Both the position numbers and the translations under genes were made by a program. From a virus, in the IMG/VR virus record IMGVR_UViG_3300024346_000457, positions 1 through 25,492 of that record: a stretch of DNA of 25,492 bases; one strand, 5' to 3'. The notes under the pieces were generated by a model. It was given only the letters and a program-made list of their open reading frames with translations. It made no database searches and had not been told where the DNA came from. Below are positions 19,076 through 23,445 of the stretch, in pieces (within the stretch, counting starts at the first letter, position 1; every line of letters starts with the position of its first letter).

Positions 19076-19504
19076 ATGGATAAATTAGGAAAAATGCAGG
19101 CAAGCCTGAATAAAAACTTACCTGAAAAGAAAGCTCCCAAGACTGAAATGACTAAAGCGGAAGCTGAAGTTAAAGATGATTATGAATTTTCAAGGAAAAC
19201 ATATAAGGATCTCATAGAAACCGGTGTGAGATCTCTTGATGTACTTGCTGAACTGGCCAGGGAATCAGAACACCCAAGAGCTTTTGAGGTTTTATCTAAG
19301 GCTATAAAAGATATCGGCGATGTTACTGATAAGCTTATGGATCTACAAAAGAGTAATAGAGATCTGACCGGTGAAGGTAAGAAATCAAAGGAAGTTACAA
19401 ACAATAATTTGTTTGTAGGAAGTACTACAGATTTGCAAAGGCTTTTTGGTAAATACGATAAAGAAAACAAGGAAAAGATAATAGATGCCACGCCTAAAGA
19501 ATGA
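19076..19504 (+). CDS. gp16: Small terminase subunit gp16
   Basis: The gene encodes 142 residues. In T4-like phages, gp16 forms rings that help select and present DNA to the packaging motor and stimulate gp17. It is highly charged and helical: an N-terminal Lys-rich segment, a central helical core (residues about 36-100: SRKTYKDLIETGVRSLDVLA, then HPRAFEVLSKAIKDIGDVTD), and a C-terminal NNLFVGSTTDLQRLF motif typical of the family. The Shine-Dalgarno is weak (AGG). It overlaps gp17 by 20 nt, so coupled translation is likely. It is near the T4 length of 164. Confidence 0.92.
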   Translation: MDKLGKMQASLNKNLPEKKAPKTEMTKAEAEVKDDYEFSRKTYKDLIETGVRSLDVLAELARESEHPRAFEVLSKAIKDIGDVTDKLMDLQKSNRDLTGEGKKSKEVTNNNLFVGSTTDLQRLFGKYDKENKEKIIDATPKE

Positions 19505-21083
19505 GCATGAAGGTTATCTAGGTAATCCTAATGTAAAAAAGGACGGGGTAGAAAGCCAATTTACTGAAAAGGAGATTAAAGAATATAGAGAATGTATGAT
19601 GGATCCATCGTATTTTGCTATTAATTATCTAAAGGTAATATCATTAGACGATGGACTTGTTCCCTTTGATTTATATCCGTATCAGAAAAACATGTTTAAT
19701 CACTTTAATAATAACCGTTTTTCTGTAGTATTGGCGTGTAGACAGTCTGGTAAATCTATTTCGGCCGTAGCATATTTACTGTGGTATGCATGTTTTCACC
19801 CTGAGAAAACCATTGCGATATTAGCGAACAAAGGCGCGACCGCTAGAGAGATGTTAGCACGGATGACGTTAATGCTAGAAAACCTACCATTTTTCTTGCA
19901 GCCAGGATGTAAGGCTTTAAATAAAGGATCAGTTGAATTTAGTAATAACTCAAAGATTATTGCATCTGCAACTTCCGGAAGCTCTATTCGTGGTCTATCT
20001 ATTAACTTATTGTTTTTAGATGAGTTTGCGTTTGTTGAAAATGATGCACAGTTCTATACTTCTACGTATCCTGTTGTTTCTTCTGGTAAAGATACAAAGG
20101 TTATTATTACTTCGACCGCTAATGGTATTGGTAATATATTCCACCGGATTTGGGAAGGTGCTACCACATATACTAATGAATATAAAGCATTTAGAGTTGA
20201 TTGGTGGGATGTTCCGGGCAGAGACGAGGCCTGGCAAAGTCAAACTATTGCTAACACCTCCGAATTACAGTTTGATCAGGAATTTGGTAATAATTTCCAC
20301 GGACGTGGTAATACGTTAATTGATGCAAGTGACTTGTTAGCGCAAAAGTCTCAGAGACCTATGTCGTTTAACGAAAACTTGTTTATGTATGAAAAACCAA
20401 GGGAAGATGGACAGTACGTAATGACCGTCGACGTGGCTAAAGGCCGTGGGCAAGATTATAGCACATTTACTATTATTGATACATCAGTAAATCCGTTTAA
20501 GCAGGTTTGTATATTCAGAGATAATAATATATCGCCAATGTTGTTGCCAGATATCTGTTATAAATATGCTATGTTATATAACGAAGCTTACGTTATCGTA
20601 GAGTCCAATGACCAGGGGGCGGTAGTTTGCAACGGATTGTATTACGATTTAGAATACGAGAATATGTTTGTTGAATCGCAGATTAAAGCAAATGCTATTG
20701 GTGCTACCATGACTCGAAGAGTTAAGAGAATTGGTTGTTCCACATTAAAGGATTTAATCGGCCAGAAGAAATTACACATTGTTGATGCTGAAACTATATC
20801 AGAGATGTGTACCTTTGTGGCAAGAGGCAACTCATTTGAGGCTCAGGCACCTAACCACGACGACTTAGTTATGAACTTAGTGTTGTTTGGTTGGTTTACA
20901 ACTACGGATATATTCCAAGGGATAACAAATATTGACATGAAAAACATGTTATATAGAGAACAATTAAAGGCAATACAGGATGATTTATTGCCTTTTGGTA
21001 TTATTAATGACGGACATCATAACGTTACTGAAGGTAAAGGTGACGGCGAAGGTAATGTATGGTTTGAGGTAGAACACCTTTAA
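19485..21083 (+). CDS. gp17: Large terminase subunit gp17 (packaging ATPase-nuclease)
   Basis: The gene encodes 532 residues. It is the motor that pumps DNA into the prohead and cuts concatemers. In the ATPase domain, the Walker A motif is CRQSGKS (85-91), the Walker B LLFLDEF with Asp179 and catalytic Glu180, and the coupling motif TSTANG (209-214). In the RNase H-fold nuclease domain, candidate metal ligands are Asp316 (TVDVAKG), Glu373 (IVESND) and Asp459/Asp460 (NHDD). The ATG lies within gp16 (20-nt overlap), with AAGGA about 12 nt upstream. It is shorter than T4 gp17 (610). All catalytic residues appear intact. Confidence 0.97.
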   Translation: MPRLKNEHEGYLGNPNVKKDGVESQFTEKEIKEYRECMMDPSYFAINYLKVISLDDGLVPFDLYPYQKNMFNHFNNNRFSVVLACRQSGKSISAVAYLLWYACFHPEKTIAILANKGATAREMLARMTLMLENLPFFLQPGCKALNKGSVEFSNNSKIIASATSGSSIRGLSINLLFLDEFAFVENDAQFYTSTYPVVSSGKDTKVIITSTANGIGNIFHRIWEGATTYTNEYKAFRVDWWDVPGRDEAWQSQTIANTSELQFDQEFGNNFHGRGNTLIDASDLLAQKSQRPMSFNENLFMYEKPREDGQYVMTVDVAKGRGQDYSTFTIIDTSVNPFKQVCIFRDNNISPMLLPDICYKYAMLYNEAYVIVESNDQGAVVCNGLYYDLEYENMFVESQIKANAIGATMTRRVKRIGCSTLKDLIGQKKLHIVDAETISEMCTFVARGNSFEAQAPNHDDLVMNLVLFGWFTTTDIFQGITNIDMKNMLYREQLKAIQDDLLPFGIINDGHHNVTEGKGDGEGNVWFEVEHL

Positions 21084-21086
21084 ATC

Positions 21087-21104
21087 TTTATTTATATAAA
21101 TAAA
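21087..21104. promoter_or_regulatory. Perfect 18-bp AT palindrome embedding late promoters on both strands
   Basis: TTTATTTATATAAATAAA is its own reverse complement. It contains TATAAATA on the + strand (21095-21102) and, overlapping it, TATAAATA on the - strand (21089-21096). It begins 3 nt after the gp17 stop codon. Confidence 0.8.
21095..21102 (+). promoter_or_regulatory. T4-type late promoter for tail sheath and tube genes
   Basis: An exact TATAAATA lies in the gp17-gp18 gap, ending 64 nt before the gp18 ATG, with predicted start near 21108. It would give the abundant sheath and tube proteins their own transcript. Confidence 0.87.
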
Positions 21105-21166
21105 ACTGATTGAACATAACCGTATTATGAAAACTTATTAATAACTCAAATTGAGAGGACAAACAA

Positions 21167-22840
21167 ATGGCATTTCAAGTATCACCAGGCGTCCAAGTCA
21201 ATGAAATTGACGCATCGGGCGTAGTACCTGCAGTTTCAACCAGTATTGGTGGATTCGCAGGCGCTTTTAATTGGGGTCCTGTAGAAGAAGTTCGCACGGT
21301 TGGTTCAGAAATAGAACTAGCAAGCATCTTCGGAACACCAGATTCCACAACTTATAAGTACTTTTTAACCGCAGCATCATTCCTAAAGTATGGTAATGCG
21401 CTTAAAGTAGTACGAGCAGCAACTGACGGTCAAAAAAACGCGACCGACGGAACTGCTAAACTAGTCAAAAATGAAGATCATTATGATTCTTTATCACATG
21501 ACGGAACATTTATTGCTAAATACCCAGGTGTACTAGGTAACGCAATTGATGTTAAAATATGTCCAGCCAATGCAACAGCCTTTGCTGCATTTACTGAAGC
21601 AAACGAGTTTGACGGAGTTCCTGGAACTTCTGACTCAGCTGCAGTTGGCGGACACACAAACGACGAATTACACATCGCTATCGTAGATAGAACTGGAGCA
21701 TGGACTGGCACTGCCGGAACTGTTCTAGAAACTTTCCAATTCGTTTCTCAAGCATCTGACGCTAAAAAATCAGACGGTACTACAAACTACTATAAAGACG
21801 TAATTAATACTAGGTCTAAGTATGTTTATTGGACCGGTCATCAAAGTGCATTAACTGATGCTGGCGAATCATTCGCTGAGCAAACAGCTGCTACTGCTTA
21901 TGTTACCGGGACCGCTGTTCTTACCGCGGTAATGACATTGGGAACTGACGATAACGAACCAACCGCTGCAGAGATTAATGTTGGATTAGACTTCTTAGCA
22001 GACTCTGAAACTGTCGATGTAAACTTGATGTTTGCATACCCAGACGCCAATGGCACTAATACTATTGCAGATAAACTAATTTCAATATGTAAAACTAGAA
22101 AGGATTGTATGGCATTTGTATCACCTCCGATCGAAGATTCAGTCGGAACTTCCACACCGGCCGCTGACGTAAAAGCATGGGCTGATACACTAGTATCAAC
22201 TTCATATGCTTCTGCTGATTCTGGTGCTGTGTATGTTTACGACAAGTATAACGACACATACAGATGGCTAGGAGCCTCTGGTCTTTGTGCTGGTCTTTGT
22301 GCAAATACTGATAATGTTGCTGACGCATGGTTCTCACCTGCTGGAACAACAAGAGGCCAACTATTTGGTGTAGCTAAACTAGCGTATAATCCTAAGAAAG
22401 TTGATAGAGACACGCTTTATAAAGCGAGAGTTAATCCTCTAGTTTCTTTCCCTGGGCAAGGTACTATGATGTTTGGTGATAAGACACTATTAAGTAAGCC
22501 AAGTGCATTTGATAGAATCAATGTAAGAAGATTATTCATCGTATTGGAAAAAGCAATTAGTACAGCCGCTAAGGGTCAACTATTTGAATTCAACGATGAG
22601 TTTACAAGAGCTCAATTTAGAAACTTACTTGAACCATTCTTAAGAGATGTTAAGGGAAGACGTGGTGTTACAGACTTTAGAGTCGTATGTGATGCTACAA
22701 ACAACACGGGTCAAGTAATTGATGCTAATAGATTTGTTGCTGATATTTTTATCAAGCCTTCAAGATCTATTAATTTCATATCACTGAACTTTATCGCAAC
22801 AAGAACCGGAGTCGATTTCTCAGAAATCGCCGGTAGTTAA
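21167..22840 (+). CDS. gp18: Tail sheath protein gp18
   Basis: The gene encodes 557 residues. It is the contractile sheath subunit, polymerising around the tail tube and contracting on infection. It is recognised by the N-terminal MAFQVSPGVQVNEIDASGVV and GGFAGAFNWGPVEEVRTVGS strands, PGQGTMMFGDKTLL, and the conserved C-terminal part (about 445-557) with NVRRLFIVLEKAI, FEFNDEFTRAQFRNLLEPFL, RFVADIFIKPSRSINFI and a closing RTGVDFSEIAG. The ATG follows GAGAGGA. It is shorter than T4 gp18 (659), with a smaller middle protrusion. Gp19 follows after 14 nt. Confidence 0.96.
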   Translation: MAFQVSPGVQVNEIDASGVVPAVSTSIGGFAGAFNWGPVEEVRTVGSEIELASIFGTPDSTTYKYFLTAASFLKYGNALKVVRAATDGQKNATDGTAKLVKNEDHYDSLSHDGTFIAKYPGVLGNAIDVKICPANATAFAAFTEANEFDGVPGTSDSAAVGGHTNDELHIAIVDRTGAWTGTAGTVLETFQFVSQASDAKKSDGTTNYYKDVINTRSKYVYWTGHQSALTDAGESFAEQTAATAYVTGTAVLTAVMTLGTDDNEPTAAEINVGLDFLADSETVDVNLMFAYPDANGTNTIADKLISICKTRKDCMAFVSPPIEDSVGTSTPAADVKAWADTLVSTSYASADSGAVYVYDKYNDTYRWLGASGLCAGLCANTDNVADAWFSPAGTTRGQLFGVAKLAYNPKKVDRDTLYKARVNPLVSFPGQGTMMFGDKTLLSKPSAFDRINVRRLFIVLEKAISTAAKGQLFEFNDEFTRAQFRNLLEPFLRDVKGRRGVTDFRVVCDATNNTGQVIDANRFVADIFIKPSRSINFISLNFIATRTGVDFSEIAGS

Positions 22841-22854
22841 TTAGGAGAAGAATA

Positions 22855-23382
22855 ATGGCAATTTTAGGCGTAGACGATTTTAAATCTAAGCTTGTAGGGG
22901 GTGGTGCACGTTCTAACATGTTCAAAGTAACATGTAACTTCCCATCTTATGCTCAAGGTGACGTTGAACTTTCTTCTTTCATGATTAAGGGTGCTCAGTT
23001 TCCTTCATCAGTTGTAGCTCCTGTACCTGTATTATTCAGAGGCAGACAACTACAACTAGCTGGAGACCGAACTTTTGAGCCGGTAACATTAACAATAATT
23101 AATGACACTGGTTTTGAGGTAAGAAACTCTTTTGAAAGATGGATGAATGGTATCAGCGAGCACAATAATAACACAGGTCAAAGTAATCCTACGGATTATA
23201 TGGCTGACATTATTGTTGAGCAGCTAAACAAGCAAGGTGACGTAACTAAGACTTACGACATGAGAGGATGTTTCCCAACTAATCTTTCAACAATCGAACT
23301 TTCATATGATAATGAAAACCAGATTGAAGAATTTACAGTTGAGTTGCAGGTTCAATATTGGGAGTCTGGAACTACTTCTTAA
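22855..23382 (+). CDS. gp19: Tail tube protein gp19
   Basis: The gene encodes 175 residues. It forms the rigid inner tube through which DNA passes. Family marks are MAILGVDDFKSKLVGGGARS, the VELSSFMIKGAQFPSS strand pair, VLFRGRQLQLAGDRTFEPVT, FERWMNGISEHNN, and the C-terminal RGCFPTNLSTIELSYDNENQ with FTVELQVQYWE. It has a strong AGGAGAAG site before the ATG and is probably cotranscribed with the sheath gene from 21095. It is close to T4 gp19 in length (163). Confidence 0.96.
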   Translation: MAILGVDDFKSKLVGGGARSNMFKVTCNFPSYAQGDVELSSFMIKGAQFPSSVVAPVPVLFRGRQLQLAGDRTFEPVTLTIINDTGFEVRNSFERWMNGISEHNNNTGQSNPTDYMADIIVEQLNKQGDVTKTYDMRGCFPTNLSTIELSYDNENQIEEFTVELQVQYWESGTTS

Positions 23383-23388
23383 AAGTAG

Positions 23389-23396
23389 TATAAATA
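23389..23396 (+). promoter_or_regulatory. T4-type late promoter for the portal gene
   Basis: An exact TATAAATA begins 7 nt after the gp19 stop and ends 49 nt before the gp20 ATG. The predicted start is about 23402, just ahead of the hairpin at 23406-23423. Confidence 0.87.
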
Positions 23397-23405
23397 ATAT
23401 TAGAC

Positions 23406-23423
23406 GAGGGGATTAATCCCCTC
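23406..23423 (+). promoter_or_regulatory. GC-rich perfect hairpin in the portal gene leader
   Basis: GAGGGGATTAATCCCCTC is a perfect palindrome. As RNA it can form six G/C-rich pairs plus inner A-T pairs. It lies at about +5 to +22 of the predicted late transcript and 22 nt before the gp20 ATG. There is no T run after it, so an intrinsic terminator is unlikely; a 5' stabilising stem or a protein site are alternatives. Confidence 0.6.
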
Positions 23424-23445
23424 CGATAATATTGAGGTAAAACAC

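Follow-up and report, generated by a model that had tools for sequence, protein, structure and literature searches.

Opposed late-promoter boxes at the tail sheath gene of a T4-like virus and some of its relatives: a candidate bidirectional late promoter

In the 25,492-nucleotide stretch of viral DNA analysed here (the window), from a marine T4-like phage, the short gap between the genes for the large terminase subunit and the tail sheath holds a perfect 18-bp palindrome, TTTATTTATATAAATAAA (21087-21104, both strands), which equals its own reverse complement and contains two opposed late-promoter boxes. The question raised by this locus is whether the box on the reverse strand is an accident of AT-rich sequence or the second half of a promoter that reads both ways and, in the latter case, what a leftward RNA would be for. 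The surrounding genes form a T4-like late module comprising a head-tail adaptor, a head closure protein, a tail sheath stabilizer, gp16, gp17, gp18, gp19 and gp20, in which gp16 and gp17 are annotated as the small and large terminase subunits and gp20 as the portal. The gp17 gene (19485-21083, plus strand; PHROGs terminase large subunit) is separated by 83 nt from gp18 (21167-22840, plus strand; PHROGs tail sheath, 2.9e-128), and gp19 is the next gene downstream (22855-23382, plus strand; PHROGs tail tube, 3.6e-63). Among the matches listed, the best named phage by gp18 is Pelagibacter phage HTVC008M, with 56% amino-acid identity. A search of the window against Rfam returned nothing at gathering scores.

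The two copies of the box TATAAATA lie at 21095-21102 on the plus strand, ahead of gp18, and at 21089-21096 on the minus strand, reading into gp17, one on each strand of the palindrome as the original prediction had it. They have 2 bp in common and are offset by 6 bp (-6 in the notation used below), in the manner of two overlapping -10-type elements. Transcription starts were predicted by the T4 rule, in which the box occupies approximately -13 to -6 (passages of PMC2988020); the exact span is our own reading of the phrase 'A(-13) in place of T' in that source, taken together with the 8-bp length of the box. By this rule the forward box would start transcription at 21108, whereas the reverse box would start it at 21083, the position at which the gp17 stop codon ends, in agreement with the leftward start that had been proposed near this position, and the reverse transcript would be antisense to gp17. 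Box positions combined with the same rule predict divergent starts 25 bp apart in the window, and 23 and 28 bp apart in relatives with offsets of -4 and -9, respectively. The gp18 mRNA leader (21103-21166, plus strand), which is similar in many relatives when junction sequences are compared by eye, is an observation in its own right, being non-coding yet alike even in quite distant relatives (TTGAATATAACCGTATTATG...AACTCAAATTGAGAGGA).

The box occurs nine times in the window against 4.2 expected (at least nine in 5 of 100 shuffles), with seven copies on the plus and two on the minus strand; five of the seven lie 41 to 72 nt ahead of the starts of long open reading frames (ORFs) and a sixth lies just past the end of gp20. 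Orientation follows the late genes, with 22 plus- and 1 minus-strand copies in the 83-kb near relative G001, and 13 and 1 in G006. Indeed, the sole minus-strand copy in G001 sits in the palindrome of the gp18 promoter.

The palindrome itself is not rare. Dinucleotide shuffling of the whole window, which is AT-rich, yielded a perfect palindrome of at least 18 bp in 24 of 200 trials, and palindrome length alone is therefore weak evidence. An opposed pair of TATAAATA boxes at offsets of -12 to +8 appeared in 3 of 200 trials when the whole window was shuffled, and in 1 of 5000 when shuffling was confined to the 83-nt intergenic region. Judged from the sequences, the strong evidence is the conservation of the box pair at the gp18 promoter. 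That the palindrome might act at the RNA level, by forming a hairpin or a terminator, was considered and rejected, the 24-nt RNA folding at only -1.2 kcal/mol and its 66-nt read-through context having a z-score of -0.59; the 24-nt RNA does fold better than 195 of 200 shuffled versions (z -3.86), but so would any palindrome. A search of the interval 19400-21400 for terminator-like sites found none.

Recurrence of the site was examined in a first scan of 80 loci, 66 of them with both gene ends. The forward box was present 68-77 nt before gp18 in all 66 loci in which a gp18 start was found, which bears out the proposal that the forward copy is the late promoter of gp18. Three more scans and five named phages enlarged the set to 325 sequences, in which 294 gp18 starts provided 222 distinct upstream regions. 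An exact forward TATAAATA was located at -125 to -30 in 184 of these regions; among the other 38, the one-base variant NATAAATA was present at -52 to -87 in 22, one (L315) had TATAAATT at -38 plus an exact box just outside the -125 to -30 interval, and 15 had none of the box variants tried. In 60 of the 184 the forward box is accompanied by a reverse TATAAATA that overlaps or adjoins it, at an offset of -4 (TATTTATAAATA) in 38, of -6, the window's form, in 19 and of -9, with the boxes one base apart, in 3, and both boxes are complete at every one of the three spacings. The expectation that relatives would keep the palindrome was thus borne out in part: both halves are retained in these 60, whereas the other 124 retain the forward half only, and the reverse box is therefore not essential to the group. 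As to named phages, T4, HTVC008M, Mosig, Melnitz-3 and C48C1 have a forward gp18 box without an overlapping partner, P-SSM2 has a forward CATAAATA at the gp18 promoter, also unpartnered, and P-HM2 and Cr30 have neither box there; the overlapping pair is present in none of the eight whose gp18 promoter was examined. Separately, some near relatives (L012, L013, L017, L021, L024, L026 and L163) have tandem late boxes, with an additional forward TATAAATA close to -32 relative to gp18.

Within the sequences compared, recurrence of the reverse box was shown for gp18, and not for gp20 or, one exception aside, for other intergenic late boxes. The gp20 promoters of the same loci have a partner in none of 75 distinct upstream regions with a forward box. 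Other intergenic late boxes had a partner in 4 of 187 cases, against 40 of 167 gp18 contexts in the same comparison (Fisher P 1.5e-10, a value calculated before three of the four were reassigned, and ignoring relatedness). Those three (L027, L157 and L161) are, by context, gp18 promoters or the mirror of one, missed by the gene finder, and after reassignment about 1 of 184 other intergenic boxes is paired (L003). Boxes inside genes, or without a gene nearby, had a partner in 11 of 237 cases. Mirrors are among these, as are the L027 gp18 promoter, one site in L041 and one in the gp17 coding sequence of L259, L263 and L265. Across nine related records and the window (approximately 639 kb) there are eight opposed pairs within 14 bp, of which seven are gp18 promoters by context, and the eighth (in G008) is convergent and non-overlapping.

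The upstream region of gp20 has a distinct feature of its own. A GC-rich hairpin (23406-23423, -12.4 kcal/mol) lies a few bases past the predicted gp20 mRNA start at 23402 (region 23389-23445), and a hairpin fold of -8 or better is present upstream of gp20 in 57 of 70 distinct relatives. Since the stem sequences differ clearly among the printed examples while the fold recurs, this looks like a 5'-terminal stem-loop under compensatory change.

Most of the paired relatives form lineages, and shared ancestry was modelled on trees of gp18 and gp17. The gp18 tree (148 rows, 59 paired) needs 13 state changes, and the gp17 tree (131 rows, 57 paired) needs 12. Neutral simulations, which model substitutions only, gave a mean of 4 paired leaves on the gp18 tree, or 17 when all-row column frequencies were used, a choice that favours the null, against the 59 of 148 observed (P<=0.0003). 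On the gp17 tree, 3 to 15 were expected against 57 of 131 observed, a count reached in none of 4000 runs under either null. More relatives are thus shown to be paired than such neutral evolution on the tree gives. Taken alone on the gp18 tree, the -6 form has P values of 0.0005 or less, and the -4 form has values of 0.05 and 0.02 under the conservative nulls. A single TA unit separates the -4 from the -6 spacing, and slippage would keep both boxes without selection, so that the two forms are not to be counted as independent gains.

Changes were also counted column by column. For the -4 clades, with exceptions retained, the counts are 1, 0, 1 and 1 at the four positions needed to complete the reverse box and 4 to 11 at the five positions preceding them; a more distant column (-10) is conserved too, with 2 changes. 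The contrast is weak in the window's own clade, with 0 or 1 changes at each of the six bases and 0 to 5 at the ten columns that precede these. Among the other 95 rows, some of them paired, there were 17 to 28 changes in the last four columns, similar to the 16 to 33 in neighbouring columns. The clades for these counts were picked after the trait had been seen, and the simulation is therefore the fairer test. Because the neutral simulations on both trees fall short of the observed count, the reverse half appears to have been kept by selection, though in certain lineages only, a reading with which the 60 paired regions among 184 and the empty gp20 control are also consistent.

On balance, the palindrome is probably a bidirectional late promoter. 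The forward TATAAATA would serve as the T4-type late promoter of gp18 and gp19, and the late RNA polymerase (host core plus a gp55-type sigma factor) would also bind the mirror box, at the same spot but the opposite way round. A leftward RNA would then begin at about 21083, and would be non-coding and antisense to the upstream gene, which is gp17 here and a cargo gene in some relatives, with the site accommodating one polymerase at a time. Initiation of RNA at the reverse box is inferred, as is the purpose of that RNA. The RNA is probably not an mRNA: the candidate role as a message was rejected since no consistent minus-strand ORF follows the reverse box in paired relatives, single long ORFs (up to 145 codons; L251, L254 and L256) being present in a few and missing from others.

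That leftward late boxes at the gp17-gp18 junction work is made plausible by eight Melnitz-type relatives (L117, at 2582-2881 on the minus strand, and L353, L346, L307, L356, L359, L349 and L354), in which a minus-strand ORF of 98-102 amino acids with CxxC pairs lies between gp17 and gp18. Its reverse late box stands exactly 5 nt before the ATG in all eight, one box being the variant CATAAATA, and at this distance the T4 rule, as outlined in parts of PMC2988020, would start the mRNA at the A of the ATG. The ORF is thus predicted to be a conserved leaderless late gene; the Melnitz-3 copy had no Pfam match above cut-off. The idea that the reverse box of the palindrome is a relic of this gene was rejected, because the reverse box of the Melnitz-3 gene is 51 bp from the forward one and is therefore not the same box. 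As a further observation on the junction, many relatives (L030, L032, L033, L044, L053, L055 and L080 among them) carry a plus-strand ORF of variable length, mostly 266-488 codons, in the gap from gp17 to gp18, and the junction looks like an insertion hotspot.

The original prediction went beyond a bidirectional promoter, of which it is a sub-case, in holding that the leftward RNA lowers expression of the terminase while sheath and tube are being made. The position of the predicted leftward start at the gp17 stop codon, from which the RNA would be fully antisense, is in keeping with this, as are, in the portions of the sources consulted, antisense RNAs over structural genes in phage PAK_P3, mainly early as opposed to late (PMC4933390), and one antisense RNA in cyanophage S-PM2 (PMC2984593). 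However, the reverse box is present in 51 of 113 relatives in which gp17 adjoins gp18 and also in 8 of 28 in which an insert sets them apart (Fisher P 0.14), so that no dependence of the box on gp17 adjacency was found; all eight of these paired insert loci have a plus-strand ORF of 352-460 codons, and 62 of the 113 gp17-adjacent relatives lack the reverse box altogether. Because the box occurs in either setting, its role would seem to be tied to the gp18 promoter more than to terminase antisense. An antisense RNA of constrained sequence was likewise rejected, there being no clear synonymous constraint at the 3' end of gp17. In the 25 sequences of the window's clade, synonymous variability there is like that of the rest of the gene, the exception being low values in the last 4 to 10 columns, where comparisons are few (162 and 497). 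Seven distinct close relatives with the same C-terminus do give a value of 0.31 for the last 60 codons against 0.44 over the 300 before, which would suit a terminase antisense RNA; within these 60, values are 0.32 for the last 10 codons, 0.52 for the preceding 10 and 0.17 to 0.33 for codons 21-60 from the stop, and the dip is mild, off-centre from the predicted start and derived from a small, closely related set. The proposed lowering of terminase is accordingly not upheld by the insert loci or by the synonymous sites of gp17, and appears unlikely. Interference at the promoter itself, in which leftward polymerases would damp read-through into gp18 from genes upstream of it, or the reverse box would throttle gp18 initiation, is favoured over it, weakly and as a tentative suggestion that is itself rather doubtful.

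Three further explanations were weighed. The upstream half could be an AT-rich element that aids melting or binding at the forward promoter, its likeness to a reverse box being incidental; T/A-rich bases do precede the gp18 boxes when all gp18 promoters, paired and unpaired, are pooled, and the P values of 0.05 and 0.02 given above for TATT alone, under all-leaf column-frequency nulls, are compatible with such an element. Yet the late promoters of gp20 in the same loci lack the partner, one word predominates before the box (TATT, 37 of 148, followed by TTTA with 20, mostly the -6 form, and ATAT with 17), the reverse box is complete at all three spacings, and T4 late promoters are described in passages of PMC2988020 as having no upstream element, so that this explanation, while somewhat better placed than terminase antisense, is also improbable. 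Chance in AT-rich DNA followed by inheritance within lineages would account for an 18-bp palindrome, given its frequency in shuffled windows, and the mere 12 to 13 state changes on the trees mean that inheritance explains most of the count; but on both trees no more than 0.03% of the simulation runs, which include inheritance, attain the observed count, and the gp20 control is empty, which leaves chance distinctly improbable. Least probable of all is that the palindrome serves as operator to a DNA-binding protein that acts as a dimer, for example a DsbA-like AT-rich binder overlapping late promoters, despite the perfect dyad symmetry and the A/T-rich DsbA sites that overlap two late promoters in T4 (parts of PMC2988020). 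The spacing of the half-sites varies by 2 and 5 bp among relatives, which a dimer presumably would not readily tolerate, and the constant part on either strand is the entire 8-bp late box; a complete late box per strand at three spacings is what opposed promoters, and not a fixed-spacing operator, would be expected to give. With these alternatives weighed, a fuller version of the bidirectional promoter can be put forward at a little short of even confidence, namely that a late-sigma bidirectional promoter has been selected at the tail sheath gene only, in several marine T4-like lineages, that sheath mRNA and a leftward non-coding RNA would start 23 to 28 bp apart, and that the competing polymerases would control sheath output or read-through from the packaging genes.

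Prokaryotic promoters that work in both directions through a shared, symmetric -10 element were reportedly described by Warman and colleagues in 2021. As for phages, searches of the open-licence literature for late promoters with antisense transcription, and for bidirectional or palindromic phage late promoters, returned no description of the present arrangement in the titles and abstract openings among the matches listed; the terms 'antisense' and 'late promoter' are absent from the main text of a 2022 T4 omics paper (PMC9697503), and passages of PMC2988020 describe T4-like late transcription as starting from simple single boxes. The window resembles T4-type late promoters in the exact 8-bp box, its strand bias and its position ahead of structural genes. 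However, T4 itself has a late box before its own gp18 in the forward direction only, whereas the window has two overlapping boxes on opposite strands. T4-type late promoters work with gp55, gp33 and gp45. As in PAK_P3 (parts of PMC4933390) and S-PM2, where the RNA is CfrI (parts of PMC2984593), the RNA predicted for the window would lie antisense to a gene with a virion or packaging role, but those RNAs were observed, mainly early in PAK_P3, whereas the one considered here is predicted, and from a late promoter. A further parallel is with bacterial promoters having a symmetric -10 element, which fire both ways, steric exclusion limiting them to one polymerase at a time, and in which distances of 18, 10 and 23 bp between divergent starts are common (sections of PMC12825309, Warman et al. 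2026). There, as here, opposed -10-type elements share few base pairs and one site could serve both directions; the -4 form predicts a spacing of 23 bp, the window 25 and the -9 form 28. Bacterial bidirectional promoters were mapped in Escherichia coli and other prokaryotes from observed RNAs, whereas the late-sigma version in phages is predicted from sequence. If the box pair is indeed selected at this single promoter, T4-like phages, like bacteria, would make use of symmetric promoters too, and such a pair would offer a clean place for testing polymerase competition by a phage sigma factor.
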